A stretch of 39,773 nucleotides of DNA from a virus. A program made the position numbers and the translations under genes. Shown piece by piece: positions 950 to 39,773 of the stretch. Below the pieces are notes generated by a model. That model saw nothing but the letters and a program-made list of their open reading frames with translations. It had not been told where the DNA came from and did no database searches. Positions within the stretch are counted from its first letter, which is position 1. Each line of letters starts with the position of its first letter. Location: positions 1 to 39,773 of the IMG/VR virus record IMGVR_UViG_3300005563_000062; one strand, written 5' to 3'.

Positions 950-1555
950 TCACTTGCAGATGCGGGATGCGATGGCGTCGCCGATCGCGGGGCCGACGAG
1001 ACGGTTGGTGACCTGCTCGCGCAGCCACTCGTCGGGGTGGTAGGTGTCGGGGACGTGCTGCTCCCATCCCGGCTGGGACCGCACCCAGGCAGAGACGTCG
1101 ATCAGCGGTCGTCCGAGTTCAGCCGCGACCTCACGCACTGCTGGCGCGTAACCGTCCAGCGTGGGGTTCGGGGTCTCGAAGATCGTCGTGTTGGCGCGGC
1201 GCAGAGCGGCCTTGAAGACCTCGACGCTCACGCTCTGGTGCTGGTCGTTGATGCCGTAGTTGCTCACCGTCGTGGCGCTAGGCTTCACGAGTTCCACGCG
1301 CATCTGTTCCGCCGTGGTGCCGCTGACGCCCAGGTTCTCCACCACGACGCGGCCCGCGCCGAAGCGCTGGTCCATGTAGCGCTGCAGATTCGACCCCTGC
1401 TGCTCCTGAGTGGAATCGCCGAACATCTGCACGACGACCGGAACGCAGGCGCTTTGCGGTTGGGCGGCTTCCGGAGCGTCGCTACCGCCGCCGCCGCAGG
1501 CCACAACCAAGCCGGTCATGACGGCGACGACGATACTGTTAGTGGTGGCTCTCAT
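950..1555 (-). CDS. SGNH/GDSL-family esterase lipoprotein
   Basis: Predicted secreted hydrolase of 201 aa. It has a lipoprotein signal peptide (hydrophobic residues 8-19, lipobox VVAC with Cys20) followed by a Gly-rich linker. The residue after Cys20 is not Asp, which is usual for outer-membrane sorting. The SGNH blocks are in order: FGDST with nucleophile Ser48; GVSGTT around Gly76-Thr81; YGIND with Asn103; DTYHP with Asp170 and His173. The family hydrolyses ester bonds, often O-acetyl groups on polysaccharides. Its start overlaps the stop of the coiled-coil gene by ATGA. It is clearly related to the esterase at 2343-3050. Inference: it edits a cell-surface glycan early in infection. Confidence 0.85.
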   Translation of the reverse strand: MRATTNSIVVAVMTGLVVACGGGGSDAPEAAQPQSACVPVVVQMFGDSTQEQQGSNLQRYMDQRFGAGRVVVENLGVSGTTAEQMRVELVKPSATTVSNYGINDQHQSVSVEVFKAALRRANTTIFETPNPTLDGYAPAVREVAAELGRPLIDVSAWVRSQPGWEQHVPDTYHPDEWLREQVTNRLVGPAIGDAIASRICK

Positions 1556-1911
1556 GCGGCCTCCGGAGAATCGTTGGTGGTAGGGAACTGAACGATCACA
1601 GCGGTCTGGCGCTGGAGACGTTCGAACATCTGTAGGTTGCTGATGCGCTGCAGACGCTCGTCTTCGATCCGATTGCGGATTGCAGATACACGATTCTCTT
1701 GTTCATGGCGCTTGGATGCCATCGCATCACGCTCGCGCAATGCATTCAGCGAATTCGCCAAGTACTGAGCTTTGGAGAAAGACACCTCAGCTTCGTCGGA
1801 CAGTCCGCGCTGTTCGATGAAGATCGCATCGAGACGGCTGACCTCGCTGGTCAACATGTCCAGGGTCCGCTGCTCCAACGCGAGCTCTTCTTGAAGGGAT
1901 TCGACTTCCAT
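1552..1911 (-). CDS. Coiled-coil hypothetical protein (119 aa)
   Basis: Starts MEVESLQEELALEQ and is nearly all charged helix with heptad spacing of Leu/Ile/Val through about residues 3-100. No signal peptide or membrane segment. It is translationally coupled to the esterase lipoprotein (ATGA overlap at 1552-1555). No family recognised. A structural or partner-binding role is likely from the coiled coil alone. Confidence 0.7.
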   Translation of the reverse strand: MEVESLQEELALEQRTLDMLTSEVSRLDAIFIEQRGLSDEAEVSFSKAQYLANSLNALRERDAMASKRHEQENRVSAIRNRIEDERLQRISNLQMFERLQRQTAVIVQFPTTNDSPEAA

Positions 1912-1964: not shown

Positions 1965-2219
1965 TCAGTCTTCTTGTTGACTCAGCTTGTATGCGCGCTG
2001 GTCGTGCTTGATGGTATTGACCGCCTGTCGGCGGCCCACGCGCTGCACCAGCTCGCGCCGCATCTGCTTCTCAGGCGCCGCCTGATGCAGCACGAAGCCG
2101 AAGTCCGCGCCGCCCGGCGATCGCGCCGGCTGCGCCTTCTTGTGTCCGGCCTTGTGGTACCGGCCCGGGCCCTTCTTCGTTGCGCTCGGCTGACGGTTGG
2201 TGATCAGGTAGTTCTGCAT
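1965..2219 (-). CDS. Basic first gene of the leftward operon (84 aa); possible antiterminator-position protein
   Basis: Highly basic protein. The N-terminal half has many Lys/His/Pro/Gly residues (TKKGPGRYHKAGHKK), and a stretch MRRELVQRVGRRQ lies near the middle. GGAG precedes the ATG at 2219. It is the first gene behind pL, the place lambda uses for N. The arginine-rich stretch and a 5-bp/5-nt hairpin in its leader would suit an RNA-binding antiterminator, but this is positional inference only; no N-family match is claimed. It could equally be a DNA-binding accessory protein. Confidence 0.6.
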   Translation of the reverse strand: MQNYLITNRQPSATKKGPGRYHKAGHKKAQPARSPGGADFGFVLHQAAPEKQMRRELVQRVGRRQAVNTIKHDQRAYKLSQQED

Positions 2220-2279: not shown

Positions 2280-2293
2280 AGCCATTATCGGCT
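2280..2293. promoter_or_regulatory. Repressor operator OL1 (AGCC-N6-GGCT)
   Basis: AGCCATTATCGGCT, an inverted repeat with arms AGCC/GGCT and a 6-base centre. The same pattern occurs four times, only in the two control regions flanking the repressor gene. It overlaps the pL -10 box. Confidence 0.75.
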
Positions 2294-2311
2294 TGCATGG
2301 CCGAATGTCAA
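2284..2311 (-). promoter_or_regulatory. Promoter pL (leftward early)
   Basis: On the minus strand there is a perfect sigma70 -35 box TTGACA (2311-2306), a 16-base spacer and a -10 box GATAAT (2289-2284). It points into the leftward operon beginning at 2219. One repressor operator (2280-2293) covers the -10 box and another (2311-2324) abuts the -35 box, so it should be silent in the lysogen. Confidence 0.8.
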
Positions 2312-2324
2312 GCCATAAACGGCT
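2311..2324. promoter_or_regulatory. Repressor operator OL2
   Basis: AGCCATAAACGGCT, same inverted repeat as OL1, with centres 31 bases apart. Read on the opposite strand with flanks (CATAGCC...GGCTTG), it matches OL1 at nearly all arm positions. It touches the pL -35 box. Confidence 0.75.
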
Positions 2325-2342: not shown

Positions 2343-3050
2343 TTAGGTGCAGAAGTGGCGGACCTGTTCCACGACTGCGGGCGCTAGGCTGTTGCTAACA
2401 ATCAGCTCATACATCCGCTCGGTTGGGTGATAGTGGTCTGGGATCAGAAGGGGCCACGTCAACATGCGTTTTGTATAGGCGTGCACGTCGGCGACCGGTA
2501 CGCCGCGGCGCTGAGCCTCATCGCGCATCGCCTGCGCATATGGGCGCACGTCGTAGTTTTTTGTCACGACGTTTGGCGTCTCGAAGACAAGTCGACCAGG
2601 CGGATTAGCCAACTGGCTCAGCGCTGCCCGATATTGGGTAAGGTCAGAATCCCGCGCGTCGTTGATGCCGTGGTTGATCACCACAACATCAGCGACTGCC
2701 GGCTGTGGCCACCGGGCGTTCTTCCCGTCCGCACCTTCCACAAGCTGAAGCAGGGTGGTTCCAGACACTCCCCGTCCTTCGACGACAACCCGGCCCTTCC
2801 CGAAGGCAAGGTCGAGTTGTCTCTGAAGAAGCTTCTCCGGTGTCCTGCCACCGATGCGATGTTTTGAGCCATCCCACCCAGCTTGCGTCGAGTCTCCGAA
2901 GAGTTGGACGGTGATGACCCTAGGAAGCCTACAGTCAGTGACTGTAGGCTGGTCCGGGGCCATGTACAGCCAAGGGCGGGAGATGAGGAGGAGCCCCATG
3001 GAAGTGGCCGCCGCTACGCCCCATCGGTATCGAGCCAGCAGCGCCATCAT
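2343..3050 (-). CDS. Membrane-anchored SGNH esterase in the rexAB position; candidate lysogenic conversion gene
   Basis: The start at 3050 (MMALLARYRWG) overlaps the repressor stop by ATGA, which is why it is preferred over upstream in-frame codons. It gives 235 aa. Residues 11-23 form one hydrophobic helix after a short basic tail, a signal anchor or uncleaved signal peptide placing the enzyme in the periplasm. SGNH blocks: FGDST with Ser54; GVSGTT at 94-99; NHGIND with Asn130; DHYHP with Asp205 and His208. It is translationally coupled to the repressor and lies between the repressor and pL, exactly where lambda has rexAB. Inference: it is expressed in the lysogen and modifies the host surface, perhaps excluding related phage. 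The substrate is unknown. Confidence 0.85.
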   Translation of the reverse strand: MMALLARYRWGVAAATSMGLLLISRPWLYMAPDQPTVTDCRLPRVITVQLFGDSTQAGWDGSKHRIGGRTPEKLLQRQLDLAFGKGRVVVEGRGVSGTTLLQLVEGADGKNARWPQPAVADVVVINHGINDARDSDLTQYRAALSQLANPPGRLVFETPNVVTKNYDVRPYAQAMRDEAQRRGVPVADVHAYTKRMLTWPLLIPDHYHPTERMYELIVSNSLAPAVVEQVRHFCT

Positions 3051-3688
3051 GCCGGCCAATCCACACCCCGCATGACCGCAACCAGGACCAGCCCATCGGT
3101 CACGCTGTCCAGCGTCGCAAATCCTCGAGCCCTTGCTGTGGCTTGCCAACGGCCGCCAGCATCCAACTGATAGTCTCTTAGGTAGTGGTTGCCATCAGCA
3201 TCACGAACAAGCACGGGTCGCCCGGCTCGCGGCGTGGCCGATGCATCGAATCGAGCGATGCACCCCTTGTAGATTTCGGGCGACAACGCATCGTCGATGA
3301 CCTCCAGCTCGAACGGCTGGCTTAGATCTGCATCCATCAATCCCTCCCAGGTGAGTCTGCGAACCTCGATTGTCTGGCGGGCATGGCTCACAGAGTGAGC
3401 CATGCCCCGGGATAGGAGTCCGATGGGACCCTTCCCTTCTGCCAGACGTACGAACTCATGGGGAGGGAGATATAGCGAATCCACGTCGACGCCAAACGCT
3501 GACGCGATCCGGCGCAGGTTCTCTGCAACCGGATTGGACTCGCCGCGAATGATGCGCCCGATGGTTGTCTGAGCAATTCCCGTCCGCTTGGCTACTGCTG
3601 GCTGGCTGCTCAGTTCAATGTGTGACGACATCAGATACGCGATGTTCGAGCCTACGTTTGGGTTCGGTGCGATCTTGTGTTTAGCCAT
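3047..3688 (-). CDS. cI: Phage repressor, HTH_XRE with degenerate S24/LexA-like C-terminal domain
   Basis: 213 aa. The N-terminal helix-turn-helix covers about residues 25-80 (QPAVAKRTGIAQTTIGRIIRG, then a Cro/CI-type tail). The C-terminal half is S24-like: FELEVIDDALSPEI, then GCIARFDASATPRAGRPVLVRD. In self-cleaving members the motif is usually D-S-M-x-P with a later catalytic Lys. Here the Ser position is Ala (DDALSP) and the Lys region reads HYLRDY, so autocleavage looks lost. It should bind the four AGCC-N6-GGCT sites. There is no clear Shine-Dalgarno before the ATG at 3688, so a leaderless transcript from a maintenance promoter (as for lambda cI) is possible. Confidence 0.9.
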   Translation of the reverse strand: MAKHKIAPNPNVGSNIAYLMSSHIELSSQPAVAKRTGIAQTTIGRIIRGESNPVAENLRRIASAFGVDVDSLYLPPHEFVRLAEGKGPIGLLSRGMAHSVSHARQTIEVRRLTWEGLMDADLSQPFELEVIDDALSPEIYKGCIARFDASATPRAGRPVLVRDADGNHYLRDYQLDAGGRWQATARARGFATLDSVTDGLVLVAVMRGVDWPA

Positions 3689-3712: not shown

Positions 3713-3726
3713 AGCCATGTGTGGCT
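3713..3726. promoter_or_regulatory. Repressor operator OR1
   Basis: AGCCATGTGTGGCT within the longer perfect palindrome CAAGCCA-TGTG-TGGCTTG (3711-3728). Its right end shares one base with the pR -35 box. Confidence 0.75.
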
Positions 3727-3754
3727 TGCAAGTGGAGCCATTAACGGCTAGGAT
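3726..3754 (+). promoter_or_regulatory. Promoter pR (rightward early)
   Basis: TTGCAA (3726-3731), a 17-base spacer and TAGGAT (3749-3754). The start point would fall near 3761, just before the AAGGAG box (3766-3771) of the Cro-like gene. OR2 lies in the spacer and OR1 at the -35 box, so repressor binding should block it. Confidence 0.7.
3736..3749. promoter_or_regulatory. Repressor operator OR2
   Basis: AGCCATTAACGGCT, lying inside the pR spacer, with its centre 23 bases from OR1. A half-site AGCCAT also occurs at the repressor start codon (3683-3688) and might be a third weak site. Confidence 0.75.
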
Positions 3755-3778
3755 CGGGTGTCCTCAAGGAGCACATGA

Positions 3779-4009
3779 ATGAGCACCCAAGTCGAACCGA
3801 TCCTTTCCTTCGTGCGCCGCAAGCTGGAGGAGTGCCGTGGCACTTGGGTCAGCGTTTCGGCAGAAAGCGGAGTGCCGTACCACACCCTGACCAAGATCGC
3901 CCAAGGCCAGGTCGAGAACCCGCGCATCGATACCGTCCAGCGGCTCGTCAATCACTTCAGCGGCGTCGAGACCGCCGAATCCACTGCCTCTGGTGCCTCG
4001 GAGGGCTGA
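3779..4009 (+). CDS. cro: Cro-like regulator
   Basis: 76-aa single-domain DNA-binding protein. Helix-turn-helix at about residues 20-60 (WVSVSAESGVPYHTLTKIAQ, then NPRIDTVQRLVNHF), followed by a short Ser/Ala/Glu tail. AAGGAG at 3766-3771 fits the ATG at 3779; a second ATG four bases upstream is in another frame. It is the first gene behind pR and diverges from the repressor across the shared operators, the classical cro position. It would repress the repressor promoter and set up lytic growth. Confidence 0.85.
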   Translation: MSTQVEPILSFVRRKLEECRGTWVSVSAESGVPYHTLTKIAQGQVENPRIDTVQRLVNHFSGVETAESTASGASEG

Positions 4010-4012
4010 GCC

Positions 4013-4179
4013 ATGGCTGAAAGCTGCGCCAGCACCCTGACGCTTCGCGCAACCAGCCGCCCAACGATGGCCAGAGCCTGCAGCCGCTGGATCAGCGCTG
4101 GATCAGCATCGGCGCGACGGATCTGCAGCGCGGCTTCATGGCCGTGATTCGCGGCATCGCCCAGCCGACCACGTTCTAA
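4013..4179 (+). pseudogene. Frameshifted small early gene
   Basis: A GGAGGG box (4000-4005) and an ATG at 4013 follow Cro closely, but the frame opened by that ATG does not give a phage-like product. The -1 frame from 4021 reads [11 protein letters not shown]..., then [19 protein letters not shown], ending TTF at a TAA (4177-4179). That frame looks like a compact phage early protein and has no start of its own. One extra A in the AAA run at 4020-4022 would join ATG-GCT-GAA to it, giving 55 aa. So this is a one-base deletion, a base-calling error in a short homopolymer, or a programmed -1 shift. Confidence 0.5.
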
Positions 4180-4196
4180 GCCATGTCGCGCGGCGC

Positions 4197-4331
4197 TCAC
4201 CTCTCCTCCCTCAGCCTAGCGGCGAGCTCTGGCTCTCCTGCTTGGGCGAGTTGTCGCGCGACAAGTTCCAGCATTTCGCAGTATTTCAGGTATGCCCATT
4301 CGACGTCCTCTGGGGTGATCAGTCTCTTCAT
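4197..4331 (-). CDS. Small antisense-oriented protein (44 aa) inside the rightward operon
   Basis: The start at 4331 (MKRLITPEDVEWAYLKYCEM) has an AAAGGA box at good spacing, and the product ends LAARLREER. It is helical, charged and protein-like, whereas the opposite-strand reading here is Ser-rich nonsense. It opposes every other gene of the pR operon and diverges from the gene at 4480. A leftward transcript through it would also run antisense to cro and into the repressor, as lambda pRE does. Function unknown. Confidence 0.5.
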   Translation of the reverse strand: MKRLITPEDVEWAYLKYCEMLELVARQLAQAGEPELAARLREER

Positions 4332-4371
4332 CTGTTCCTTTCGCGCCGCCTGTGGCGAGCGCATGACTCGT

Positions 4372-4385
4372 GATGCCGCGGCATC
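4372..4385. promoter_or_regulatory. 14-bp perfect palindrome in a divergent gene gap
   Basis: GATGCCG-CGGCATC, a perfect inverted repeat between the leftward 44-aa gene and the rightward gene at 4480. Possible operator for a regulator of either direction; no binding protein is identified. Confidence 0.35.
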
Positions 4386-4479
4386 GCTTTTCCCCATTGC
4401 GGATGCAACGGTGAATCGGGTTGTGCGCTCACCAGAGGCCGTCGAGCTTCCGCCCTTCAACAACGCAATGGGGATTGCC

Positions 4480-4839: not shown

Positions 4840-5123
4840 CCAACATCCACGCCCGGAACCGGGTCGCCCAGCATTACTGTGAACTCAATGGCGTTACTGA
4901 AGAGGAGCGAGTCGCTCTCATCGCTTCGCTGTATCACTGCTCTGAGCGGATGGTGCTTGAGGTCGTCACCGCAAGAGCAGTGTGCGAGTACTTGCATGCT
5001 CTGGGTATCACCCACGAGCCCGCACTTGAGGTGTTGATCGCTGCCGCGCGCAAGTTCCACATCCCGACCGAAGCGCTGCAATTGGCGGTCGACGAGCACC
5101 TGCTTTCCGTGGAGGCGTCATGA
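4836..5123 (+). CDS. Hypothetical early protein (95 aa)
   Basis: The ATG at 4836 is inside the stop overlap of the previous gene and has a strong AAGGAGG box. The protein is acidic and helical (VTEEERVALIASLYHCSERM, then HEPALEVLIAAARKFHI). No known family recognised. Overlapping ATGA junctions on both sides support real translation within the operon. Confidence 0.7.
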   Translation: MTNIHARNRVAQHYCELNGVTEEERVALIASLYHCSERMVLEVVTARAVCEYLHALGITHEPALEVLIAAARKFHIPTEALQLAVDEHLLSVEAS

Positions 5124-5395
5124 CCATCAGGGCCGGAGACCTCGCCGAAGTCATCGGCGGAATGCTCGGCGAGAAGAGTCCCAACCTGGGCCTCATCGTC
5201 CGCGTGAAGGAGTTCCGCGGCGAGCACTCGCAGTTCGGCCGCATCTGGAGGTGCGAGGCCGAGTTCGCTGAGCGCGGACAGCCGGGCGTCAACGTTCCCG
5301 ACGGAGCGGTCGACTTCGCCCAGGACTGGCTCCGCAAGATCGAGCCGCCGAAGCAGTCCACCACGGACAAGACCGAGCGCGAGGTTTCGGCATGA
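5120..5395 (+). CDS. Hypothetical early protein with small beta-barrel look (91 aa)
   Basis: Starts MTIRAGDLAEVIGGMLGEKSPNLGLIVRVKEFRGEHS. This beta-rich pattern with Gly turns recalls small SH3/KOW-like domains of phage accessory proteins. The Glu/Lys-rich C-terminus is probably disordered. Coupled to both neighbours by four-base overlaps. Function unknown. Confidence 0.7.
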   Translation: MTIRAGDLAEVIGGMLGEKSPNLGLIVRVKEFRGEHSQFGRIWRCEAEFAERGQPGVNVPDGAVDFAQDWLRKIEPPKQSTTDKTEREVSA

Positions 5396-5676
5396 ACTCC
5401 GCCTTCAGCCCCAACTACCAGTCGGTCCTGCCGTCTGAGGTCGCGAAGCGTGAGCCAGTGACTCCGGAACTGACCATCCTGCAAGGCACGGTGCTGGACT
5501 TCATCCGCGACTTCCGTCGCTCACACCAGATGCCACCCACCCGCGCCGAGATCGCGCGGCACTTCAAGTGGGCCTCGGCCAATGCCGCCGAATGCCACCT
5601 CCGCGCCCTTGAGAAGAAGGGCGCCATTCGACTCTCCGCGACTCCTCGCGGCATCTTCGACCTGGAGACAGCATGA
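5392..5676 (+). CDS. Stand-alone LexA-type winged-helix DNA-binding protein
   Basis: 94 aa. Residues about 25-90 read like the LexA N-terminal domain: LTILQGTVLDFIRDF, MPPTRAEIARHFKWAS, NAAECHLRALEKKGAI and a closing RGI. The LexA peptidase and dimerisation domain is absent, so it cannot be cleaved in the SOS response. It may regulate phage genes or occupy host LexA-type sites. It is coupled to its neighbours in the early operon by ATGA overlaps. The fold assignment is strong by motif; the target is unknown. Confidence 0.8.
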   Translation: MNSAFSPNYQSVLPSEVAKREPVTPELTILQGTVLDFIRDFRRSHQMPPTRAEIARHFKWASANAAECHLRALEKKGAIRLSATPRGIFDLETA

Positions 5677-29811: not shown

Positions 29812-31883
29812 TGCCTCGCCTCCCATCCCTCGATACCGTCGCGCGCGCTGCGCCGCGATCGCAGCGTTCTATCGCGTCGGTCAATGACGGTGGCATCGGT
29901 CAGGCGCTTGGAAGTGTGGCCGGCGCCGTCGACCAGCTTGCGAAGGAGGCTGATGCCCAAGCTGTGTTCAGCGCGCGTCGGCAGCTGGACGATTGGGAAC
30001 GGTCCGCAATCTACGATCCGGACAACGGCGCCATCAACAAATTGGGGCAGGACTCGTTTGGACTGCAGGAGGCGATCCCCAAGTCGTTCGACGAGGCGTC
30101 CGCGAAGATCGGAGAAGGACTCACTTCTGAGCGCCAGCGTCGCGCCTTCCGTGAACTCTCCGCTTCGCGCCGCAATCAGGTTCTGGACTGGACTGATCGC
30201 CACGTTCAGCGCGAGAAGGACACCTACGATCGAGGACAGTTTGAGGCCGACATCCAGTCCGTTCATGACCGTGCAGCCCGGTTCGCCGGTGATCCAGCGC
30301 GAGTGAAGGCGGAGATGGCCACGGGCGCCGCGCGCACGATCGGATACCTCCGCAGCAAAGGTCGCAGCGAAGAAGAGATCGCACAGACCATCCGAAATCA
30401 GGACGAGAAGACGCACGTGGCGGTGCTTGACACGCTGCTGGCCGGCGACAACTGGAAGGCAGCAAAGGGCTACCTCGACAAGAACGCCGAGGCGATGAAC
30501 CCGGCCGCCGTCCTGCGGCTTAGCAACCAGATCCAGAAACAGGAGGATTCCGTCGAAGGAACTGCCGCGGCTCACGCTGTGATCGGAGCCATCCAGCCCA
30601 ACATGCAGCCAACAGACCTGGACCGGGTGATGAACATCACCATGGCTTCGGAGTCCGGTGGTCGTCGGTACGGCACGGATGGGAAGTTACTCACGAGCTC
30701 TGCCGGCGCCAAGGGCGAGATGCAGGTCATGGACTCCACCAACCTGGATCCTGGGTTCGGTGTGAAGGCGGCCAAGGACAACAGCCCGGACGAACGTGCG
30801 CGCGTCGGACGTGACTACCTCAACGCCATGATCAAGCGATACGGCGGTGACATGTCGAAGGCATGGGCTGCGTACAACGCTGGCCCTGGCCGGGTTGATG
30901 AGGCTCTGGCTACCGCCAAGGAACAGGGCGATCCGGAGTGGACGATCTTCCTTCCCCAGGAGACCCAGGCCTACGTCGCCAAGAACATGGCGGCGCTAGA
31001 TGCCGGAGGCGGCGCCCCGCAGCGTCCGACCCTCAAGGAGGTGCATGACAACGTGCGCCGCACCCTGGTCGGCCAACGCCCCGAGCGCATCAAGGTCGCG
31101 CTAGACGAATCGACTCGTCTCTTCAAGGAACAGACCGATGAGATCAAGCAGCGAGAGGATGAAGCGCTTGCCACCGCGCAGCGAGGCTTGGCGCAAAACG
31201 GCGGCTCGTGGAACGCTCTGCCGCCGTCGGTTCGCAATGCCGTCCCGGCAGGGAAGGTGGATGACCTGCTGAACTTCGGCGCGCGGGTAGCCAAAGGAGA
31301 GGATCAGACGGATCCGATCGTGTTCCAGAAGATGGCCACGGACGATAAGTGGCTGAAGGGAATGTCCGACGCAGAGTTCTACTGGCAGTCGCGCAAGCTC
31401 TCCCAGGCGGATCAACAGCAGATGGCGCTGCGCCGCGGGCAACTGATTAGCGGCAAGGGTGGAAACGGCCCTGGCGATGTCGACTTCGCTTCGCTGAACT
31501 CGACGTTGAACTCGAGACTGAACCAGATGGGCATCGACCCGACGCCTCCGGATCGTGACAAGGCTGGACAGCAGCGGGTGGGTGCCATTCGCAACGCGGT
31601 TCAGAGTTACGTGCTACAGCAGCAACAGCAGGCCGGAAAGAAGTTCGACGACGCCATGATGGCCAAGACCATTGATCAGGCGATCGCAAGGAAGGTCCAA
31701 TTCCGTACGACTGGATTCTTCGGCGGCGTGACGGATTCCTCTGAACGGCTCCTGACCATGCAGGCGGGCGACATCCCGCCAGCTGTACGAGAGAAGCTCA
31801 AGGCCGACTTCAAGGCCAACGGCGTTCAATCCCCATCGGATGGCGACATCCTGGGCGCATACCTTCAACTGAAGCTCCGCTGA
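29811..31883 (+). CDS. Internal virion protein with lytic transglycosylase domain (690 aa)
   Basis: Long helical N-terminal region (VAGAVDQLAKEADAQAVFSA). An SLT domain follows at about residues 265-370: ASESGGRRYG with catalytic Glu281, AGAKGEMQVM, and AAYNAGPGRV. The C-terminal half is helical with Gln-rich stretches. After ejection it would cut peptidoglycan glycan strands locally to let DNA cross the wall, as T7 gp16 does. It overlaps both neighbours by one base (TGATG junctions). Confidence 0.88.
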   Translation: MPRLPSLDTVARAAPRSQRSIASVNDGGIGQALGSVAGAVDQLAKEADAQAVFSARRQLDDWERSAIYDPDNGAINKLGQDSFGLQEAIPKSFDEASAKIGEGLTSERQRRAFRELSASRRNQVLDWTDRHVQREKDTYDRGQFEADIQSVHDRAARFAGDPARVKAEMATGAARTIGYLRSKGRSEEEIAQTIRNQDEKTHVAVLDTLLAGDNWKAAKGYLDKNAEAMNPAAVLRLSNQIQKQEDSVEGTAAAHAVIGAIQPNMQPTDLDRVMNITMASESGGRRYGTDGKLLTSSAGAKGEMQVMDSTNLDPGFGVKAAKDNSPDERARVGRDYLNAMIKRYGGDMSKAWAAYNAGPGRVDEALATAKEQGDPEWTIFLPQETQAYVAKNMAALDAGGGAPQRPTLKEVHDNVRRTLVGQRPERIKVALDESTRLFKEQTDEIKQREDEALATAQRGLAQNGGSWNALPPSVRNAVPAGKVDDLLNFGARVAKGEDQTDPIVFQKMATDDKWLKGMSDAEFYWQSRKLSQADQQQMALRRGQLISGKGGNGPGDVDFASLNSTLNSRLNQMGIDPTPPDRDKAGQQRVGAIRNAVQSYVLQQQQQAGKKFDDAMMAKTIDQAIARKVQFRTTGFFGGVTDSSERLLTMQAGDIPPAVREKLKADFKANGVQSPSDGDILGAYLQLKLR

Positions 31884-34800
31884 TGGACGAAGATACTCTC
31901 GATACTGCTGGCGCGGTTTCTCGCTATATCGCCGGACGCAAGCCTGATACACAGGTCCGCACCAGCATGGCTGTCGGTGTGGCCGCGCAGCCTGACCAGG
32001 AGGCGGAGTTCCGCCGCCTGGCTCAGCGCGCCGGAGTGCCGCTGGACACTGCCAAGTCCATCCCGGATGAGGTGAAGCGTACTGCAGCGCTGAATACGGT
32101 CGACTTCAACGACCTCGCCGTGCGCTTCCCGTCGACCACCCGGTATCTCTCGGACGTCAACAATGCCCAGATCGCGCATGACGATGTTGACGGGATGAGT
32201 CTGACAGAGGGATTGGTCAACTCGTTCAAGCGCGGCATCCCCAGCCTGAAGCAGAACCTGTCGGCCCTGGCCATCGGCGCCCGCCAGTCCAGCGTCGCAC
32301 GCCTGGAGCGAGAGTTGTCGGAGCGCGCCGCTGGCCGTGGACGTGAAGATCCTGGCCTTGCTACCATCTCTAACGATGGACTCCGTGAACGCATTGCCGG
32401 CATGCGTGGCGCCGATGTGCGTGAGGTCGGGACCATCGTGTCGACTCAGGGCGAGAAGAACCAGCTCCCTTCGGATCCAGTCGTCCAGCGGGTGATGGAT
32501 GCCAAGGGATTCGGCGATGCCATCTCGGCGTTCTCTACCGACCCGGTCAAGTTCGTCGCCAACATCGGACCGGAGAGTCTGATCCAGAGTGTCCCTGGCA
32601 TCGGAGCAGCTGTGGTAGCAGGCCCGGCCGCTGGCGCTGCGGCTATGGGTGGTGGGTCATTTGCTGTCGACTACGGCGCTACGCTGATGGAGGCGCTCCA
32701 GAAGGAAGGCGTCGATCTAAACAGCCCGGACGCGCTGGTCGCTGCATCCAAGGATCAGGCGCTGATGCGTCGAGCAACGGCCCAGGCCTTCGCTCATGCC
32801 GGCGTCGTTGGCACTCTCGATGCGATCAGCGGAGGTCTGGCGGGGAAGGTGCTGCTGCCCGGTCGTGTCGCAACGAAGCTGGCTGCCCGGCCACTGGCGC
32901 GCGAGATCGCGAACATGGGCGTGCAGACGCCGGTCCAGGGACTGCTTGGCGGCCTCGGTGAACTAGGCGGTGAACTGGCTGCCGGCCAGGACATCAGCCC
33001 TGGGAACATCCTGGCGGAAGTTGTCGGTGAGGCCTTCACTGCACCGGCAGAGGCCGCAGGCGTTGCACACACGGCCATCCGTGAGCGCATGCAGCACGCC
33101 CAGGCGGCCAAGGAAAATGCTCAGGTACTGACTCAACTGGCGGCGGCTTCCGAAGCGAGCAAGGTGAAGAAGCGGGATCCGCAGAGCTTCAAGGCCTTCA
33201 TCGACTCCGCGACGGAGAACGGACCGGTGCATGACATCTATCTCGCACCTCAGGCGCTGGCGCAGTCGGGGATCGACGTGCGCGCGCTGGCCGAGGCTTC
33301 GCCGGCTGTGGCTGATCAGATCGACGCTGCGACGGCGGCGGGGACCGACATCCGAATCCCGGTGTCAGAGTTTGCTGCCAATGTGGTCGACGCAGGTCTG
33401 GCCGAGCAGCTGATCCCTCACCTTCGCACCGATCCTGAAGGGATGAGCCTCACCGAGGCGGACCAGTTCATCAAGGACCACGGAGAAGAGATCCGCTCGG
33501 CTGTCGAGACCGAACTGTCTCGGCGCGACACGGCGGACGCGGCGCGCACAAGCCGCGATGCGGTGCGCGACAACTTCCTGCAGCAGATCCTGGCTACGGG
33601 CCGATACAACGAGGACATCGCCAAGCCAAATGCGGCGCTGGCCTCGGCCTTCTACGCCACGACGGCCGGTCGGCTCGGGATGACGGCGGAGCAACTCTAC
33701 GCCCAGTACCCGCTCCGCCTCCAAGGCGAGGACCTGCAAGGCAACGTGCTGAACCAGGGCGACATCCTGGACCTTGGTGATCTCGACAGCCTGATGCGTG
33801 GTAGCGGAGAGGAGTCCTTCGGGATCTCCGACAACGCCAGCGGCGAGAGTGCCGCAAGCCTGGAGGCACAAGGTCGTCTGCGCGAGGAGAGGGCGCTCGG
33901 CCGTCGGCGCTACGTTGTCGACACCCGAACCGGTCAGGTCCGTCCGCTGGTGGGCGTTGATGCCGTCGACACCAATGCCTCCGCCGACCAGATCATCGTG
34001 CAGCGCAACGTCGGCGCCACCGACTGGACGGTGATGTCGGCCGGCCCGGGCGTCACGCGGAATGCGGCGATGGCGGCTGTCGGCCGCGGTCAGGCCACCG
34101 GCGCGCTGGCCCAGGGTCAGCGCGGAGCCTTCAGCCCGAGCAACCTGACCATCTCCTTGTTGGCCAACGCCGACCTGTCGACGGCCTTGCATGAGTTCGG
34201 CCATGCCTTCCTGGAGATCATGGTCGACATCGCCGCGCGCGAGAACGCGGAACCCGGCGTGCAGCAGGACCTGACCACCGTCCTAGACTGGTTCGGCATC
34301 CAGCCGGCGGAGGGCAAGACACAACTCCAGACTTGGCAGGACATGAGCCTGGACGAGCAGCGCGAGAGCCATGAGAAGTTCGCGCGTGGCTTCGAGGCCT
34401 ACTTGTTCGGTGGCAAGGCGCCGAGCCTGGAATTGCAGGGTGTGTTCCAACGCTTCCGCGCGTGGCTGATGAACGTCTATCAGTCGCTCAAGTCGCTGAA
34501 CGTCACCCTTTCGGAGGAAGTCCGCGGCGTGATGGACCGCATGCTGGCCAGCGAGCAGGAGATCGAGACTGCGGAGGCTGCGCAGTCCATGGCCGCCCTG
34601 TTCCAAACACCGGAGCAGGCGAAGCAATTCGGCCTCGACTGGTCCAAGTACCAGGAACTGGGACGGGCCCAGACCGAGCAGGCAATCTCGGAACTCGAGA
34701 CCCGCTCGCTAAGGGACATGCAGTGGCTCGCCAACGCGCGCAGTCGCACCCTCAAGGCCCTGCAGAAGGATGCCGCGGAGAAGCGCCGCGCCGTCAGGTC

Positions 34801-37800
34801 CGAGGTTCGGACAGAGGTGATGGCGACCCCCATCTACCGCGCCTGGGCGTTCCTGACCGGCAAGGTGGCAAAGCCAGTTGAGCCCACGGAGGCCGAGGCC
34901 GAGTACCGCAAGGAACTCAAGGACTTCCGCCAGCGCCGGGTTGAAGCTGAGGAGCAGGCGGCCAAGGAGGAACGCGCCAAGATGCTGGCGGCCAACCCTG
35001 AGTTGAAGGGGTTGCAGAAGGGCCAGTTCCTCGCCAAGAACAAGCGCCAGATCGACATCAACGTCCAGCAGCGGATGCTGGAGTGGGACAACGCCCACCA
35101 AGAGCCGGAAGCGCCGCCGTCGGCACAGGGTGATGTGCCTGAGGGATTCGAGGTCGGAAAGCTGAGCACCGAGGCGGTCAAGGCCATCGACAAGGACGCC
35201 GCGGCAGCGCTGCAGAAGCGCCGCATGGCCAGCAAGGAAGGGATGGACCCGGACGTGCTTGCCGAGCAGTTCGGCTTCCAGTCTGGGCAGCAGCTGGTCC
35301 GCGCGCTGGTGCTTGCCGACACGCCGAACGAGGCCGTTGAGGGACTGACCGATCAGCGCATGCTGGAACGCTATGGCGACATCACCAGCCCCGAGGCGCT
35401 CGCCAAGGCCGTGAACGAAGCCCTGTTCAACGAGGCGCGCCAGCGCGCGGTTGCGACGGAACTGAAGGCGCTTGAGAAGGCGATGAAGGTCCGGAGCGAG
35501 GGGAAGAACGCCGACATCTCGGGCGGCACCGTGGCGACTTTGCCGGCGGCGGCGAAGACATTCGCAGAGGCGATGGTCGCGAAGCTGCTGGTCAAGGACG
35601 TGCGGCCGAACCAGTACGCCGCTTCACAGGCTCGCGCCGCGCGCGCGGCAACCCAGGCTCTCGCGAAGGACGACATCGCCGCGGCGGCGAAGGAGAAGCG
35701 CAACGAACTGGTGAACGGCTACGCCTTCAAGGCGGCGGTCGACGTGCAGAACGAGGTCCGCGAGACGCTCGCGTTCTTCCGCCAGATCCAGAAAGGCACG
35801 AAGGACACGATCGCCAAGACCAGAGACGTCAACCTGGTCATGGCCATGCGTGCGATCGTCGCAGAGTACGGCGTTGGTCTGCGTCCTGGACAACTGGCCG
35901 GCGAGTACCTGGAGAACATCCGCGCCTACGATCCGGCGACCTATCAGATCCTCAAGGATCGCGTCGACAACATGACCATGGCCGCAGCGCCATACCAAGA
36001 GGTCAGCGTCGAGAAGCTTCGCGGCTTGACAGACGAGCTCAAGAGCATGTGGCAGCAGTCGCGCCGACTGCGCCAGATCGAGGTCGACGGCAAGTTGATC
36101 GATCGCGAGATGGTCCAAGCCGAACTGATGGGCCGACTGGAGGAGATCGGCATCCCCGCACGGGTGGCCGGTGAGGGCATGGCGGTCACCGATTCTGAGC
36201 GTCGCTTGTCCAAGATCCAGACCATCGGCGCCGCGTTGCGACGCGTTGAATCGTGGGTTGGCGCCAAGGACGGCGGTCAGAGCGGCCCGTTCCGCACCTA
36301 CATTTGGCAGCCGGTGAAGGAAGCAGCAGATCGGTACCGCGCAGAGAAGGGCGGACATCTGCGCAAGTACCGCGATCTGCTCAAGACGGTCGAGTTGGGG
36401 CGCGGGCGTGTCGAGGCTCCTGAACTTGGCTATGTGTTCGGCTTCAGCCGCGGCGGATCCGGAAAGCAGGAGATCCTCCACGCGCTGCTGCACACCGGCA
36501 ACGAGAGCAACAAGCGGAAGTTGCTGCTCGGACGCGGCTGGGCGACCGAGAACGAGGACGGAACCATCGACACCTCTCGCTGGGATCGATTCGTCAAGCG
36601 CATGCAGGACACGGGAGTGATCGGCAAAGCGGAGTACGACTTCGCGCAGGGCGTTTGGGATCTGCTCGAGCAGATGAAGCCGGCCGCCCAGAAGACTCAC
36701 CGAGACGTGTTCGGCTCGTACTTCGACGAGGTGACGGCCGATTCCTTCGAGACGCCGTTCGGCCAGTACCGCGGCGGCTACGTCCCCGCGATGACTGACT
36801 CCGAGGTCGTCAAGGATGCCGCCACCAGGGAGCTGGCGGAGGCCGAGAATCAGTCTTTGGCCTACGCCTTCCCGACCACCTCCAAGGGATTCACGAACGC
36901 ACGCGTCGAGTACAACAAGCCGCTGCTGTTGGACCTGCGCTCGCTGGCGCAGCACATCGACAAGGTGCTGATGTTCACGCACCTCGAGCAACCGGTGCGC
37001 GACGTCCGCAAGATCCTGACCTCCGACGATGTCTCGACGGCCTTGCATCGCATCGACCCGACGGCTTTCGATGGACTGCTGACGCCATGGCTCAATCGCG
37101 CAGCACGGCAGCAGGTCGAGACCCCAATCGCCGGAACCAACGGCGTGATGCGGTTCTTCTCCCTGATGCGTCAGCGCGCCGGCATGGCGGCCATGTTCGC
37201 CAACTTCGCCAACGCCGCGCAGCAGATCACCGGGCTGAGCATCGCGGCGCTGCGCGTCAAACCGAAGTCGCTGATGTCTGCCACGGTGCAGTTCCTGACC
37301 CAGCCGAAGGCAACCATTGACGCCGTGACATCGGCTTCAACGTACATGGCCTCTCGCATGGACAACGAGGTGGCGCAGATGAATGACGCCATCGGCGACA
37401 TCCTGCTCAACCCGAACGTCCTGCAGTCCAGCCAGCAGTGGTTCGGAAAGCACGCCTACTTCCTTCAGTCGGCGGTGGACAACGTGATTGGTCCGATCGT
37501 TTGGACGGGGGCCTACAACGATGCCATCACGCAGGGCCTTAGCGAGCGAGATGCCATCCGTAGGGCTGACTCCGCCGTGCGCGAGACGCAGGGCAGCACC
37601 CTCCCTGAAGACGTCTCACGGATCGAGACCGGCAGCGCCTTCGCTCGCATGTTCACGCAGTTCGCAGGCTACTTCAACATGCAGGCCAACCTGATCGGCA
37701 CGGAGATGGCGAACACCTATCACGAACTCGGCCTGCGCAAGGGTATGGGTCGTGGCCTGTTCATCTTCACCTTCGGGTTCCTGGTTCCGGCACTGGTCAG

Positions 37801-38260
37801 CGAGGCGATCGTCCAGGCTTTCCGTGGTGGGCCGGAAGACGAGGACGGCGACGGTGAGGTTTGGGACGACTGGCTTTCCGCCCTTGGGATGGGAGCCTTC
37901 CGCGCCGGTGTTGGGATGCTTCCGGGCCTCGGACAGGTCATCAACGCCGGAGTGAACACCTTCAACAAGAAGCCCTACGACGACCGGATCAGCACCAGTC
38001 CCGCCATCTCGATGATCGAGAGCGCGGTGTCGGCGCCGCATTCCGTGTACGCGGCGGCGTCCGGCGAGGGGAGTTCCAAGAAGGCAGTCCGCGACCTCGC
38101 CACGTTGATCTCCATGACGGTCGGCCTGCCAGCCAGCGCTATGGCTCGACCGATCGGATACCTAACGGACGTCTCAGAAGGAAAGGTCAATCCCACAGGT
38201 CCTGTCGATGCGGCGCGCGGCCTCGTGTCGGGAACAGCATCGCCAGAATCAAAGCAATAG
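31883..38260 (+). CDS. Giant internal virion protein (2125 aa) with HEFGH metallopeptidase-like motif
   Basis: The largest gene of the window. The N-terminal 400 residues are helical ejection-protein type with a Gly/Ala membrane-like stretch (IGAAVVAGPAAGAAAMGGGS). ALHEFGHAFLEIM carries HEXXH at residues 770-774, and downstream EKFARGFEAYL offers a third ligand, a gluzincin-like layout. The middle is long Lys/Glu/Ala helix. The C-terminus (MRQRAGMAAMFANFANAAQQ, then MFTQFAGYFNMQANLIG) resembles the LPD38 region of large polyvalent proteins. Likely ejected into the cell with the DNA; the peptidase target is unknown. Confidence 0.8.
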   Translation: MDEDTLDTAGAVSRYIAGRKPDTQVRTSMAVGVAAQPDQEAEFRRLAQRAGVPLDTAKSIPDEVKRTAALNTVDFNDLAVRFPSTTRYLSDVNNAQIAHDDVDGMSLTEGLVNSFKRGIPSLKQNLSALAIGARQSSVARLERELSERAAGRGREDPGLATISNDGLRERIAGMRGADVREVGTIVSTQGEKNQLPSDPVVQRVMDAKGFGDAISAFSTDPVKFVANIGPESLIQSVPGIGAAVVAGPAAGAAAMGGGSFAVDYGATLMEALQKEGVDLNSPDALVAASKDQALMRRATAQAFAHAGVVGTLDAISGGLAGKVLLPGRVATKLAARPLAREIANMGVQTPVQGLLGGLGELGGELAAGQDISPGNILAEVVGEAFTAPAEAAGVAHTAIRERMQHAQAAKENAQVLTQLAAASEASKVKKRDPQSFKAFIDSATENGPVHDIYLAPQALAQSGIDVRALAEASPAVADQIDAATAAGTDIRIPVSEFAANVVDAGLAEQLIPHLRTDPEGMSLTEADQFIKDHGEEIRSAVETELSRRDTADAARTSRDAVRDNFLQQILATGRYNEDIAKPNAALASAFYATTAGRLGMTAEQLYAQYPLRLQGEDLQGNVLNQGDILDLGDLDSLMRGSGEESFGISDNASGESAASLEAQGRLREERALGRRRYVVDTRTGQVRPLVGVDAVDTNASADQIIVQRNVGATDWTVMSAGPGVTRNAAMAAVGRGQATGALAQGQRGAFSPSNLTISLLANADLSTALHEFGHAFLEIMVDIAARENAEPGVQQDLTTVLDWFGIQPAEGKTQLQTWQDMSLDEQRESHEKFARGFEAYLFGGKAPSLELQGVFQRFRAWLMNVYQSLKSLNVTLSEEVRGVMDRMLASEQEIETAEAAQSMAALFQTPEQAKQFGLDWSKYQELGRAQTEQAISELETRSLRDMQWLANARSRTLKALQKDAAEKRRAVRSEVRTEVMATPIYRAWAFLTGKVAKPVEPTEAEAEYRKELKDFRQRRVEAEEQAAKEERAKMLAANPELKGLQKGQFLAKNKRQIDINVQQRMLEWDNAHQEPEAPPSAQGDVPEGFEVGKLSTEAVKAIDKDAAAALQKRRMASKEGMDPDVLAEQFGFQSGQQLVRALVLADTPNEAVEGLTDQRMLERYGDITSPEALAKAVNEALFNEARQRAVATELKALEKAMKVRSEGKNADISGGTVATLPAAAKTFAEAMVAKLLVKDVRPNQYAASQARAARAATQALAKDDIAAAAKEKRNELVNGYAFKAAVDVQNEVRETLAFFRQIQKGTKDTIAKTRDVNLVMAMRAIVAEYGVGLRPGQLAGEYLENIRAYDPATYQILKDRVDNMTMAAAPYQEVSVEKLRGLTDELKSMWQQSRRLRQIEVDGKLIDREMVQAELMGRLEEIGIPARVAGEGMAVTDSERRLSKIQTIGAALRRVESWVGAKDGGQSGPFRTYIWQPVKEAADRYRAEKGGHLRKYRDLLKTVELGRGRVEAPELGYVFGFSRGGSGKQEILHALLHTGNESNKRKLLLGRGWATENEDGTIDTSRWDRFVKRMQDTGVIGKAEYDFAQGVWDLLEQMKPAAQKTHRDVFGSYFDEVTADSFETPFGQYRGGYVPAMTDSEVVKDAATRELAEAENQSLAYAFPTTSKGFTNARVEYNKPLLLDLRSLAQHIDKVLMFTHLEQPVRDVRKILTSDDVSTALHRIDPTAFDGLLTPWLNRAARQQVETPIAGTNGVMRFFSLMRQRAGMAAMFANFANAAQQITGLSIAALRVKPKSLMSATVQFLTQPKATIDAVTSASTYMASRMDNEVAQMNDAIGDILLNPNVLQSSQQWFGKHAYFLQSAVDNVIGPIVWTGAYNDAITQGLSERDAIRRADSAVRETQGSTLPEDVSRIETGSAFARMFTQFAGYFNMQANLIGTEMANTYHELGLRKGMGRGLFIFTFGFLVPALVSEAIVQAFRGGPEDEDGDGEVWDDWLSALGMGAFRAGVGMLPGLGQVINAGVNTFNKKPYDDRISTSPAISMIESAVSAPHSVYAAASGEGSSKKAVRDLATLISMTVGLPASAMARPIGYLTDVSEGKVNPTGPVDAARGLVSGTASPESKQ

Positions 38261-38333: not shown

Positions 38334-39773
38334 ATGCCAGCGACTTCAACCGACCGACTGCAGGGATTGACCACGTCGGTCGCTGTGAAACCGCCATGCA
38401 AGGCGGTCACCACATCCGCAATCACGCTCAACGGTGAGCAGACCGTCGGTGGCGTGCCGTGCGTTTCCGGCGATCGAGTCCTCGTCGCAATTGCGGGCGG
38501 ATCGATCAGCAACGGGATCTGGGTTGTCGACACTGGGGCTTGGGAAAGGGCGCGTGATTTCGACGGGAACCGAGATGTCGTTCAGGGAACGATAGTCCTT
38601 GTGACGCCCGGTGTCGCAGCCAGATTCTGGCAAGTGCAGACTGCCAACCCAATCGTCATCGGAGCGACGTCGATCGTCATTGCTGCGATCGACCCGTCGG
38701 CGCTTTCGGTATCTGCAAATCAGATGCTGTTTGACTTCGATACGACCTATCTGTCTGGATCCATCGGGCTGGCGCTATCGACTCTCAAGCAGTATTCCGT
38801 CATCGACGTCGACGCGATCCAGCAATTGATGACCGATGTCGCGGCCGGGACAGGTCGCATCATCGCGTGCTTTGGCGACTCAACGATGTGGGGCGCGGAC
38901 CCTGCGAATCTCGCCAACCAAGTCGCGGTTCCGCCGCCCACCGCGCTGCAGAACTTCGTCAACAACTACCACGGCAACAGCGCGCTGACGGTCACGAACA
39001 ACGGCATCAGCGGCACGACGGCCACGCAGATGATTGCCGGGACCGACGGCAGCGGCACGACGTTCGCCGCGAAGATGGCGGCCAGCACCGCGCGTGCCGT
39101 GTTGTGCAACCACGGCATCAACGATGCCTTCGGTGCCAACGCGACGACCCTTGCGGCCTACCGCACGGCACTCCTCTCGTTCATCTACACGTGCCGCTTC
39201 TACAGCAAGACGCCCATCCTGGTGAGCCCTTTCCCGGCGCTGGCGGTGGCGGGCAACTACGGCGCCTTTGGCAGCCAGGCGCGCTCGGAGGCGACGTCTC
39301 GCTTCGCCGAGGAGATGCGCAAGGTTGCTCGCGACCACAGCGTTACCGTCGTCGACAACAACCTGCTGATGTCGCGCTTGCTGAACATCGACGGTCAGCT
39401 GCCGCTGTCGATCCTTCCGGATGGCGTGCATGCCAGCCAGGCCGGATACGGATTCGCCGGCAACAACATGGCGGGCGTTCTTCTGGACTCGCAGATGGAG
39501 GCGTTCAGCCGCCCGGCTCAGCGTCTGCCGTCCAGCGCGTCAGCCATCAAGGCCACCAGCCAGACCGTCAGTGCATCCAGCAGCTCGCGAGTGGGCGTCG
39601 TCGTCACCACCGGAATCGCTACGCCCCAGACCATGCGCATGGTGTTCCGAGTCGATGAGTCCGGCCTCGACCTCGTGCTGTCGCATCCGATCTTCTCCAA
39701 CGGCTCCGCGTCGATCGCGATCAATCTGGACGGCGGCGCGCTCGGCACGCTGTCCATGCTGCATGCCGGCTTC
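38334..39773 (+). CDS. Tail fibre with SGNH esterase domain, C-terminus cut by the window end
   Basis: 480 codons visible, open at the right edge. The N-terminus (TSVAVKPPCKAVTTSAITLN, GEQTVGGVPCVSGDRVLV, AWERARDFDGNRDVVQGT) is the tail-attachment module found in many podoviral fibres. An SGNH domain follows: CFGDSTMWG with Ser183, GISGTT, CNHGIND with Asn263, and PDGVH with Asp363 and His366. The blocks match the two leftward esterases more than the one at 16056. A beta-rich region begins after residue 400. Expected to bind and de-esterify the receptor polysaccharide. Confidence 0.85.
   Translation, partial: MPATSTDRLQGLTTSVAVKPPCKAVTTSAITLNGEQTVGGVPCVSGDRVLVAIAGGSISNGIWVVDTGAWERARDFDGNRDVVQGTIVLVTPGVAARFWQVQTANPIVIGATSIVIAAIDPSALSVSANQMLFDFDTTYLSGSIGLALSTLKQYSVIDVDAIQQLMTDVAAGTGRIIACFGDSTMWGADPANLANQVAVPPPTALQNFVNNYHGNSALTVTNNGISGTTATQMIAGTDGSGTTFAAKMAASTARAVLCNHGINDAFGANATTLAAYRTALLSFIYTCRFYSKTPILVSPFPALAVAGNYGAFGSQARSEATSRFAEEMRKVARDHSVTVVDNNLLMSRLLNIDGQLPLSILPDGVHASQAGYGFAGNNMAGVLLDSQMEAFSRPAQRLPSSASAIKATSQTVSASSSSRVGVVVTTGIATPQTMRMVFRVDESGLDLVLSHPIFSNGSASIAINLDGGALGTLSMLHAGF

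Follow-up and report, generated by a model that had tools for sequence, protein, structure and literature searches.

The window analyzed here, 39,773 bases that make up a whole virus record, comes from a temperate, podovirus-like phage, and its immunity region raises an unusual question: why should a gene for an SGNH/GDSL hydrolase directly follow the repressor gene, and what would such an enzyme do in a lysogen? An earlier note on this DNA proposed that the enzyme is made together with the repressor and strips ester groups from a surface glycan of the lysogen, blocking superinfection. This interpretation is partly supported by the present analysis and is strengthened by a prophage with the same gene order.

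An SGNH hydrolase gene in the accessory slot of the immunity region

The CI-like repressor, with an HTH domain and an S24-like C-terminal domain, is encoded on the minus strand (3047..3688; HTH_3, 1.8e-9; phrog_4, transcriptional repressor, 2e-10). On the same strand, the gene for the 235-aa SGNH/GDSL hydrolase, hereinafter E1 (2343..3050; characterized using Pfam, alignments, AF2, structure searches and hydropathy), starts within the repressor stop, the two overlapping in an ATGA (3050-3047). The sequence AGCCATNNNNGGCT is present in four exact copies in the 39.8 kb, at positions 2280, 2311, 3713 and 3736, all of which bracket the repressor and E1; when one mismatch is allowed, there are 8 matches compared to 2.8 expected by chance, and all 8 fall in the same two intergenic segments. 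The operator search defines two left operators, AGCCATTATCGGCT (2280..2293) and AGCCATAAACGGCT (2311..2324), and two right operators, AGCCATGTGTGGCT (3713..3726) and AGCCATTAACGGCT (3736..3749), the latter pair located between the repressor and a plus-strand gene for a Cro-like regulator (3779..4009; phrog_9425, transcriptional repressor, 6.7e-23). A pL-like promoter on the minus strand (TTGACA-N16-GATAAT, 2284..2311; 11/12 consensus positions) overlaps the left operators and is the sole promoter of such strength found in the first 6 kb. On the right, a weak pR-like promoter on the plus strand (TTGCAA-N17-TAGGAT, 3726..3754; 8/12) is below the promoter-scan threshold. No open reading frame lies between the E1 stop (2343) and pL. 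Thus, the layout described in the earlier note, namely the overlap of the two genes, their position between two operator pairs and the empty interval between E1 and pL, holds in each respect. E1 is encoded between the repressor and the left operators with pL, on the repressor strand, that is, in the rexAB/bstA slot, a moron site that is transcribed from the cI promoter (PMC7067206).

The right operators showed no consensus-like pRM, no consensus promoter of E1's own was found inside the repressor-E1 unit, and the ribosome-binding site ahead of E1 is weak. We infer that a maintenance promoter at the right operators drives both genes. Conceivably, E1 could instead be silent in the lysogen, with transcription ending within or after the repressor gene, or could be read mainly during lytic growth, as the lack of a recognizable maintenance promoter and the weak ribosome-binding site might indicate. 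However, the ATGA overlap suggests translational coupling, the same layout is found in the prophage described below, and the cI-bstA and cI-rexAB pairs show that the slot is transcribed with cI (PMC7067206), so silence appears improbable. Together with the operator bracketing and the lack of a separate promoter, these observations lend good support to the earlier prediction of joint production with the repressor. The minus strand showed no terminator-like site in the interval from E1 to the pL genes (2343-2219), so that transcripts of the repressor operon could possibly read through into the left operon and express its SGNH gene, E2, in the lysogen too.

A separate feature of the repressor is an Ala in the S24-like domain (DDALSP) that aligns with the catalytic Ser of the L024 repressor (DDSMAP; see below). 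Lacking this serine, the window repressor may not undergo self-cleavage upon SOS induction.

E1 is a predicted exported ester hydrolase

The assignment of E1 to the SGNH esterase-type proteins is borne out by Pfam, the catalytic residues and the AF2 fold. The intact open reading frame matches PF13472 (E=1.3e-17; 65.3 bits, with the curated cut-off at 32.9) and PF00657 (7e-10). The full SGNH catalytic set, S54, G97, N130 and H208, along with D205, is present in blocks I, II, III and V, and the blocks GDST (Ser54), G97, GIND (N130) and D205/H208 are invariant in the aligned phage relatives. The AF2 model (mean pLDDT of 81.5, with values of about 90 across most of the catalytic domain) adopts the SGNH fold and matches acetylxylan esterases, CE3 acetyl esterases and other SGNH enzymes with Z scores of approximately 17-21; a search of PDB sequences with E1 found little. 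Given these residues and this fold, E1 is predicted to be an active ester hydrolase.

The N-terminus of E1 contains a weak signal-like h-region (best 19-residue KD value of 1.16) but neither a lipobox nor a clear SPase I site, the first cysteine being residue 40. E1 is therefore not a lipoprotein, but is a homolog of the phage SGNH lipoprotein family all the same. Cys40, located before block I, and Cys234, at the C terminus, form a pair that is common to the closest lipoprotein relatives and suggests a disulfide, hence an oxidizing compartment. The signal-like N-terminus and the cysteine pair together support a putative export of E1 to the periplasm; given the weak N-terminal segment without a lipobox, the membrane anchoring proposed in the earlier note is uncertain.

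The same arrangement in a Burkholderiaceae prophage

A prophage in a Burkholderiaceae MAG (L024) shares the order of the elements with the window. An operator pair (TATTAGCNNNNGGCTCT, at 3011 and 3058), different in sequence from the window operators, is followed by a repressor (from 3086; 31% identical to the window repressor; S24 domain, 2.3e-8), an exported SGNH protein with an N-terminal hydrophobic segment encoded 5 bases downstream of the repressor (3729-4430; PF13472, 3.7e-13), a second operator pair (4469 and 4494) that surrounds a consensus-like pL, a gene matching the window gene at 1552-1911 in position, and an ortholog of E2 (4920-5546; 61% identity). The similarity between the rex-slot SGNH of L024 and E1 is only marginal (BLASTP E of 0.011, hhalign probability of 2%, tree branch of 5.3), and the two are not supported as direct orthologs. 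This far-reaching divergence suggests that the rex slot acquired this type of enzyme more than once, and the combination of a shared slot and enzyme class with far diverged sequences is a sign that selection has favored an exported SGNH enzyme co-produced with the repressor.

The arrangement is known from these two phages only. Searches of viral contigs with the rex-slot SGNH of L024, or with the window repressor alone, found little, and there is no annotated surface enzyme next to the repressor in the lambda-like phages PAJU2, D14E and BgManors32, which have similar repressors, or in Acidovorax phage AP1, a relative by TerL. In a further relative of the immunity module (L045), the interval between the repressor and the left operators (1244-2640) contains a BrnT-like/CopG-like pair, recognized by weak Pfam matches, and small open reading frames. 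To judge from this content, the rex slot is a variable accessory slot.

Two further SGNH domains in the left operon and the tail fiber

E1 is one of three SGNH domains in this genome; the other two, E2 and E3, are absent from the earlier note. The pL operon, on the minus strand, starts with an 84-aa open reading frame that has no Pfam or PHROG match (1965..2219) and continues with a conserved 119-aa gene (1552..1911), which has a relative at the corresponding location in L045 (34%) and, to judge from position and appearance, another in L024. The next gene, overlapping the upstream one in an ATGA, encodes E2 (950..1555), a 201-aa SGNH lipoprotein with the lipobox VVAC and a CGGGG motif. In the tree, E2 pairs with its ortholog from the pL operon of L024, encoded in the corresponding place (support 98/97), which is the only member of the E2 family that a search of 399 genomes of the order found.

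The early lytic location of E2 bears on another explanation, under which E1 and E2 are Ape-like peptidoglycan O-acetylesterases that prepare the wall for the endolysin or alter its turnover. The fold takes in peptidoglycan O-acetylesterases such as Ape1. A role in lysis, however, leaves unexplained the repressor-linked expression, the connection to the tail fiber and the links to acyltransferases described below, and we regard a peptidoglycan target as very improbable.

E3 maps to approximately 38868-39449 (PF13472, 1.8e-13), within a plus-strand open reading frame that matches tail-fiber PHROGs and is cut by the contig end (38334..39773). It clusters with tail proteins from two phages, HHU8 and PP99 ("putative deacetylase"; support 98/99), its nearest kin being deacetylase-type SGNH domains of tail fibers and tail spikes. 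The presence of this domain on the phage's own tail fiber suggests that the receptor is probably an O-acetylated glycan. In the maximum-likelihood tree, E1, E2 and E3 fall into three separate lineages and hence are not recent copies of one another; in particular, a recent tandem duplication that would yield E1 and E2 is ruled out.

In L045, one tail open reading frame shows a weak SGNH match.

Phage-borne relatives of E1 and links to AT3 acyltransferases

The homologs of E1 in IMG/VR and in phages Magia and PBR31 are mostly lipoproteins with CGGGG after the lipobox. In the tree, E1 belongs with the phage lipoproteins L007, L008 and L009 and the chromosomal L020 of Paucibacter (support 97/96), which places it in this family; searches of genome contigs with E1 alone found little. 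Many of the relatives are single genes that are antisense to the late operon, between tail-fiber and lysis genes, or are located near the integrase, and an antisense position among lytic genes is a recognized moron signature (PMC7067206). Esterase morons of this kind recur among betaproteobacterial phages, and Acinetobacter phage 5W encodes a related GDSL protein in a location that does not adjoin a repressor.

Most of the relatives are phage-borne, but free-standing homologs with no visible prophage also exist in chromosomes, for example L020, near a tRNA-Ser. Morons are often host-fitness genes, and E1 might alter the surface of the lysogen for the benefit of the host, in adhesion, predation or nutrient use, rather than for phage exclusion. 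L020 would fit such a function, whereas the predominance of phage-borne relatives and the SGNH domain in the tail fiber of the window phage argue against it; we consider this explanation unlikely.

Several relatives are linked to AT3 acyltransferases. An AT3 gene adjoins the SGNH relative in Magia and in L013, and in a Rhizobacter MAG (L023, 3792-5582), an AT3 acyltransferase is fused to an SGNH domain of the phage family that includes E1. In L043 and L044 (approximately 350-2184), a chromosomal gene for a membrane-anchored SGNH protein, akin to the rex-slot SGNH of L024, is directly followed by an AT3 gene, and PF19040, the AT3-fused type of SGNH domain, is weakly matched in chromosomal relatives of the same L024 protein. 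These associations tie the enzymes to O-acylation of surface glycans.

The same associations are compatible with the chief rival of de-esterification, in which E1 and a host AT3 protein would jointly make up an O-acetyltransferase of the OafA/OafB kind, E1 being its periplasmic SGNH half, so that acetyl groups would be added or relocated. The SGNH domains of OafA and OafB are required for O-antigen acetylation and also possess acetylesterase activity in vitro (PMC7448272). Against such a partnership, no AT3 gene is found among the window proteins examined, most of the lipoprotein relatives have no adjoining AT3 gene, and lipoproteins of the outer membrane would be distant from an AT3 protein located in the inner one. 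Furthermore, E1 lacks the AT3 domain (PF01757) and matches the general PF13472, with no match to PF19040 at E up to 1. Receptor change and exclusion would still be possible under this scheme, by the opposite chemistry. We deem it rather unlikely, although it is the alternative that has to be taken most seriously.

E1 as a candidate lysogenic-conversion enzyme

The explanation that we favor, with a probability of about one half, casts E1 as a lysogenic-conversion gene. Its product would remove ester groups from a surface glycan in the periplasm and thereby block phages that need O-acetylated receptors. From its place in the accessory (rexAB/bstA) slot of an immunity region of the lambda type, E1 would share with the repressor a transcript that starts at the maintenance promoter of the right operators and, judging by the N-terminal segment and the cysteine pair, the protein would cross the inner membrane. 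It would then take acetyl or similar ester groups off an O-antigen or capsule-type glycan during the periplasmic stage of the latter. A lysogen stripped of these groups is expected to resist phages that require them, probably including the same phage, the SGNH domain of which in the tail fiber is consistent with an O-acetylated receptor. E2, made early from pL, could perform the same de-esterification during infection and might stop re-adsorption or a second infection.

Ester removal from a surface glycan is supported as a prediction by the fold of E1, the AT3 genes beside or fused to its relatives and the SGNH domain of the tail fiber. Exclusion follows by analogy with phage G7C, in which the tail spike deacetylates the O-antigen and is required for infection, and host mutants without O-unit acetylation are completely resistant (PMC10743462), so that a lysogen deacetylating its own glycan would resist phages of this type. 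Several points weigh against this explanation: E1 has a weak export signal without the lipobox seen in its relatives, an SGNH enzyme in the rex slot is known from just two phages, known conversions of the D3/P22 type add groups rather than remove them, and tail and lysogeny esterases do not generally occur as matched pairs.

With regard to the last point, there is no SGNH match in the tail region of the L024 prophage and no SGNH Pfam match in the tail proteins encoded beside the moron relatives, so the notion that a lysogeny esterase is always matched by an SGNH tail fiber is unsupported. In a more specific form of the proposal, a periplasmic SGNH deacetylase encoded in the repressor operon would erase the very O-acetyl groups needed by the phage's own tail fiber, with immunity and receptor removal set by one switch and unrelated SGNH enzymes taken up independently; we regard this form as somewhat less likely than not.

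Comparison with known systems

The proposed role resembles seroconversion of the D3 Oac and P22 Gtr type, where prophage enzymes alter the O-antigen and block the adsorption of related phages (PMC11436027, PMC7067206). These enzymes, however, are membrane transferases that add acetyl or glucosyl groups and are encoded in their own transcription units, whereas E1, encoded in the operon of the repressor, is predicted to hydrolyze esters. Conversely, lambda rexAB and BTP1 bstA share the position of E1, with the repressor on one side and the left early operon on the other, and are transcribed from the cI promoter (PMC7067206), but Rex and BstA act intracellularly, whereas E1 is a putative exported enzyme with the envelope as its predicted site of action.

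Among tail proteins, G7C gp63.1, the PP99 and HHU8 proteins that E3 joins, and fibers of Klebsiella prophages are SGNH esterases that are shown or predicted to act on O-acetylated glycans; temperate Klebsiella phages commonly have SGNH tail fibers, and esterase activity has been proven for two of these (PMC13123978). All these are virion parts used for infection, unlike E1 and E2, which appear to be free-standing exported proteins. OafA and OafB also employ an SGNH domain in the periplasm to act on O-antigen acetylation (PMC7448272), as predicted for E1, but are AT3-SGNH acetyltransferases, a domain architecture that E1 does not share.

Serratia phage BZS1 was proposed to combine a tail-fiber deacetylase with a surface-modifying gene of lysogeny that would prevent superinfection (PMC7556043), much as suggested here for the window phage but with the chemistry reversed. 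The lysogeny gene of BZS1, located on the opposite strand among late genes, encodes an acetyltransferase, in contrast to the predicted esterase E1. Closest to E1 in sequence family are the proteins of Burkholderia phage Magia, encoded between tail/AT3 and lysis genes, and Xanthomonas phage PBR31, encoded between integrase and lysis genes, but these are lipoproteins in slots of their own, with no link to a repressor.

These comparisons bear on the earlier statement that no exclusion system of this form had been described. A review of exclusion mechanisms (PMC11436027) includes no esterase or deacetylase, in line with that statement. Annotated phage records, though, already describe family members in such terms: the PBR31 record reads "putative deacetylase, possible O-antigen modification protein", and that of Magia reads "outer membrane-associated lipid esterase". 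The slot (rexAB, bstA), prophage receptor conversion (D3 Oac, P22 Gtr) and annotated SGNH morons in phages are thus already known; the literature searched yielded no description of their combination, in which an enzyme that removes groups is tied to the repressor.

Known prophage blocks either add groups to the O-antigen or rely on intracellular exclusion from the repressor operon, and an enzyme that removes groups under the control of the repressor would unite these two modes. If the proposal is correct, the lysogen would be protected for as long as immunity holds, and the three SGNH domains in one phage would be explained, one using the acetylated receptor and two erasing it. Prophage carriage may also be an overlooked source of variable O-acetylation, of relevance for phage host range and serotyping.

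Beyond the immunity region, the closest relatives of the phage by TerL (about 38%) are Acidovorax phage AP1, Bordetella phage BPP-1 and a Limnohabitans phage. Between the structural genes and the tail fiber lies a 2125-aa open reading frame (31883-38260) that probably encodes a large virion protein.
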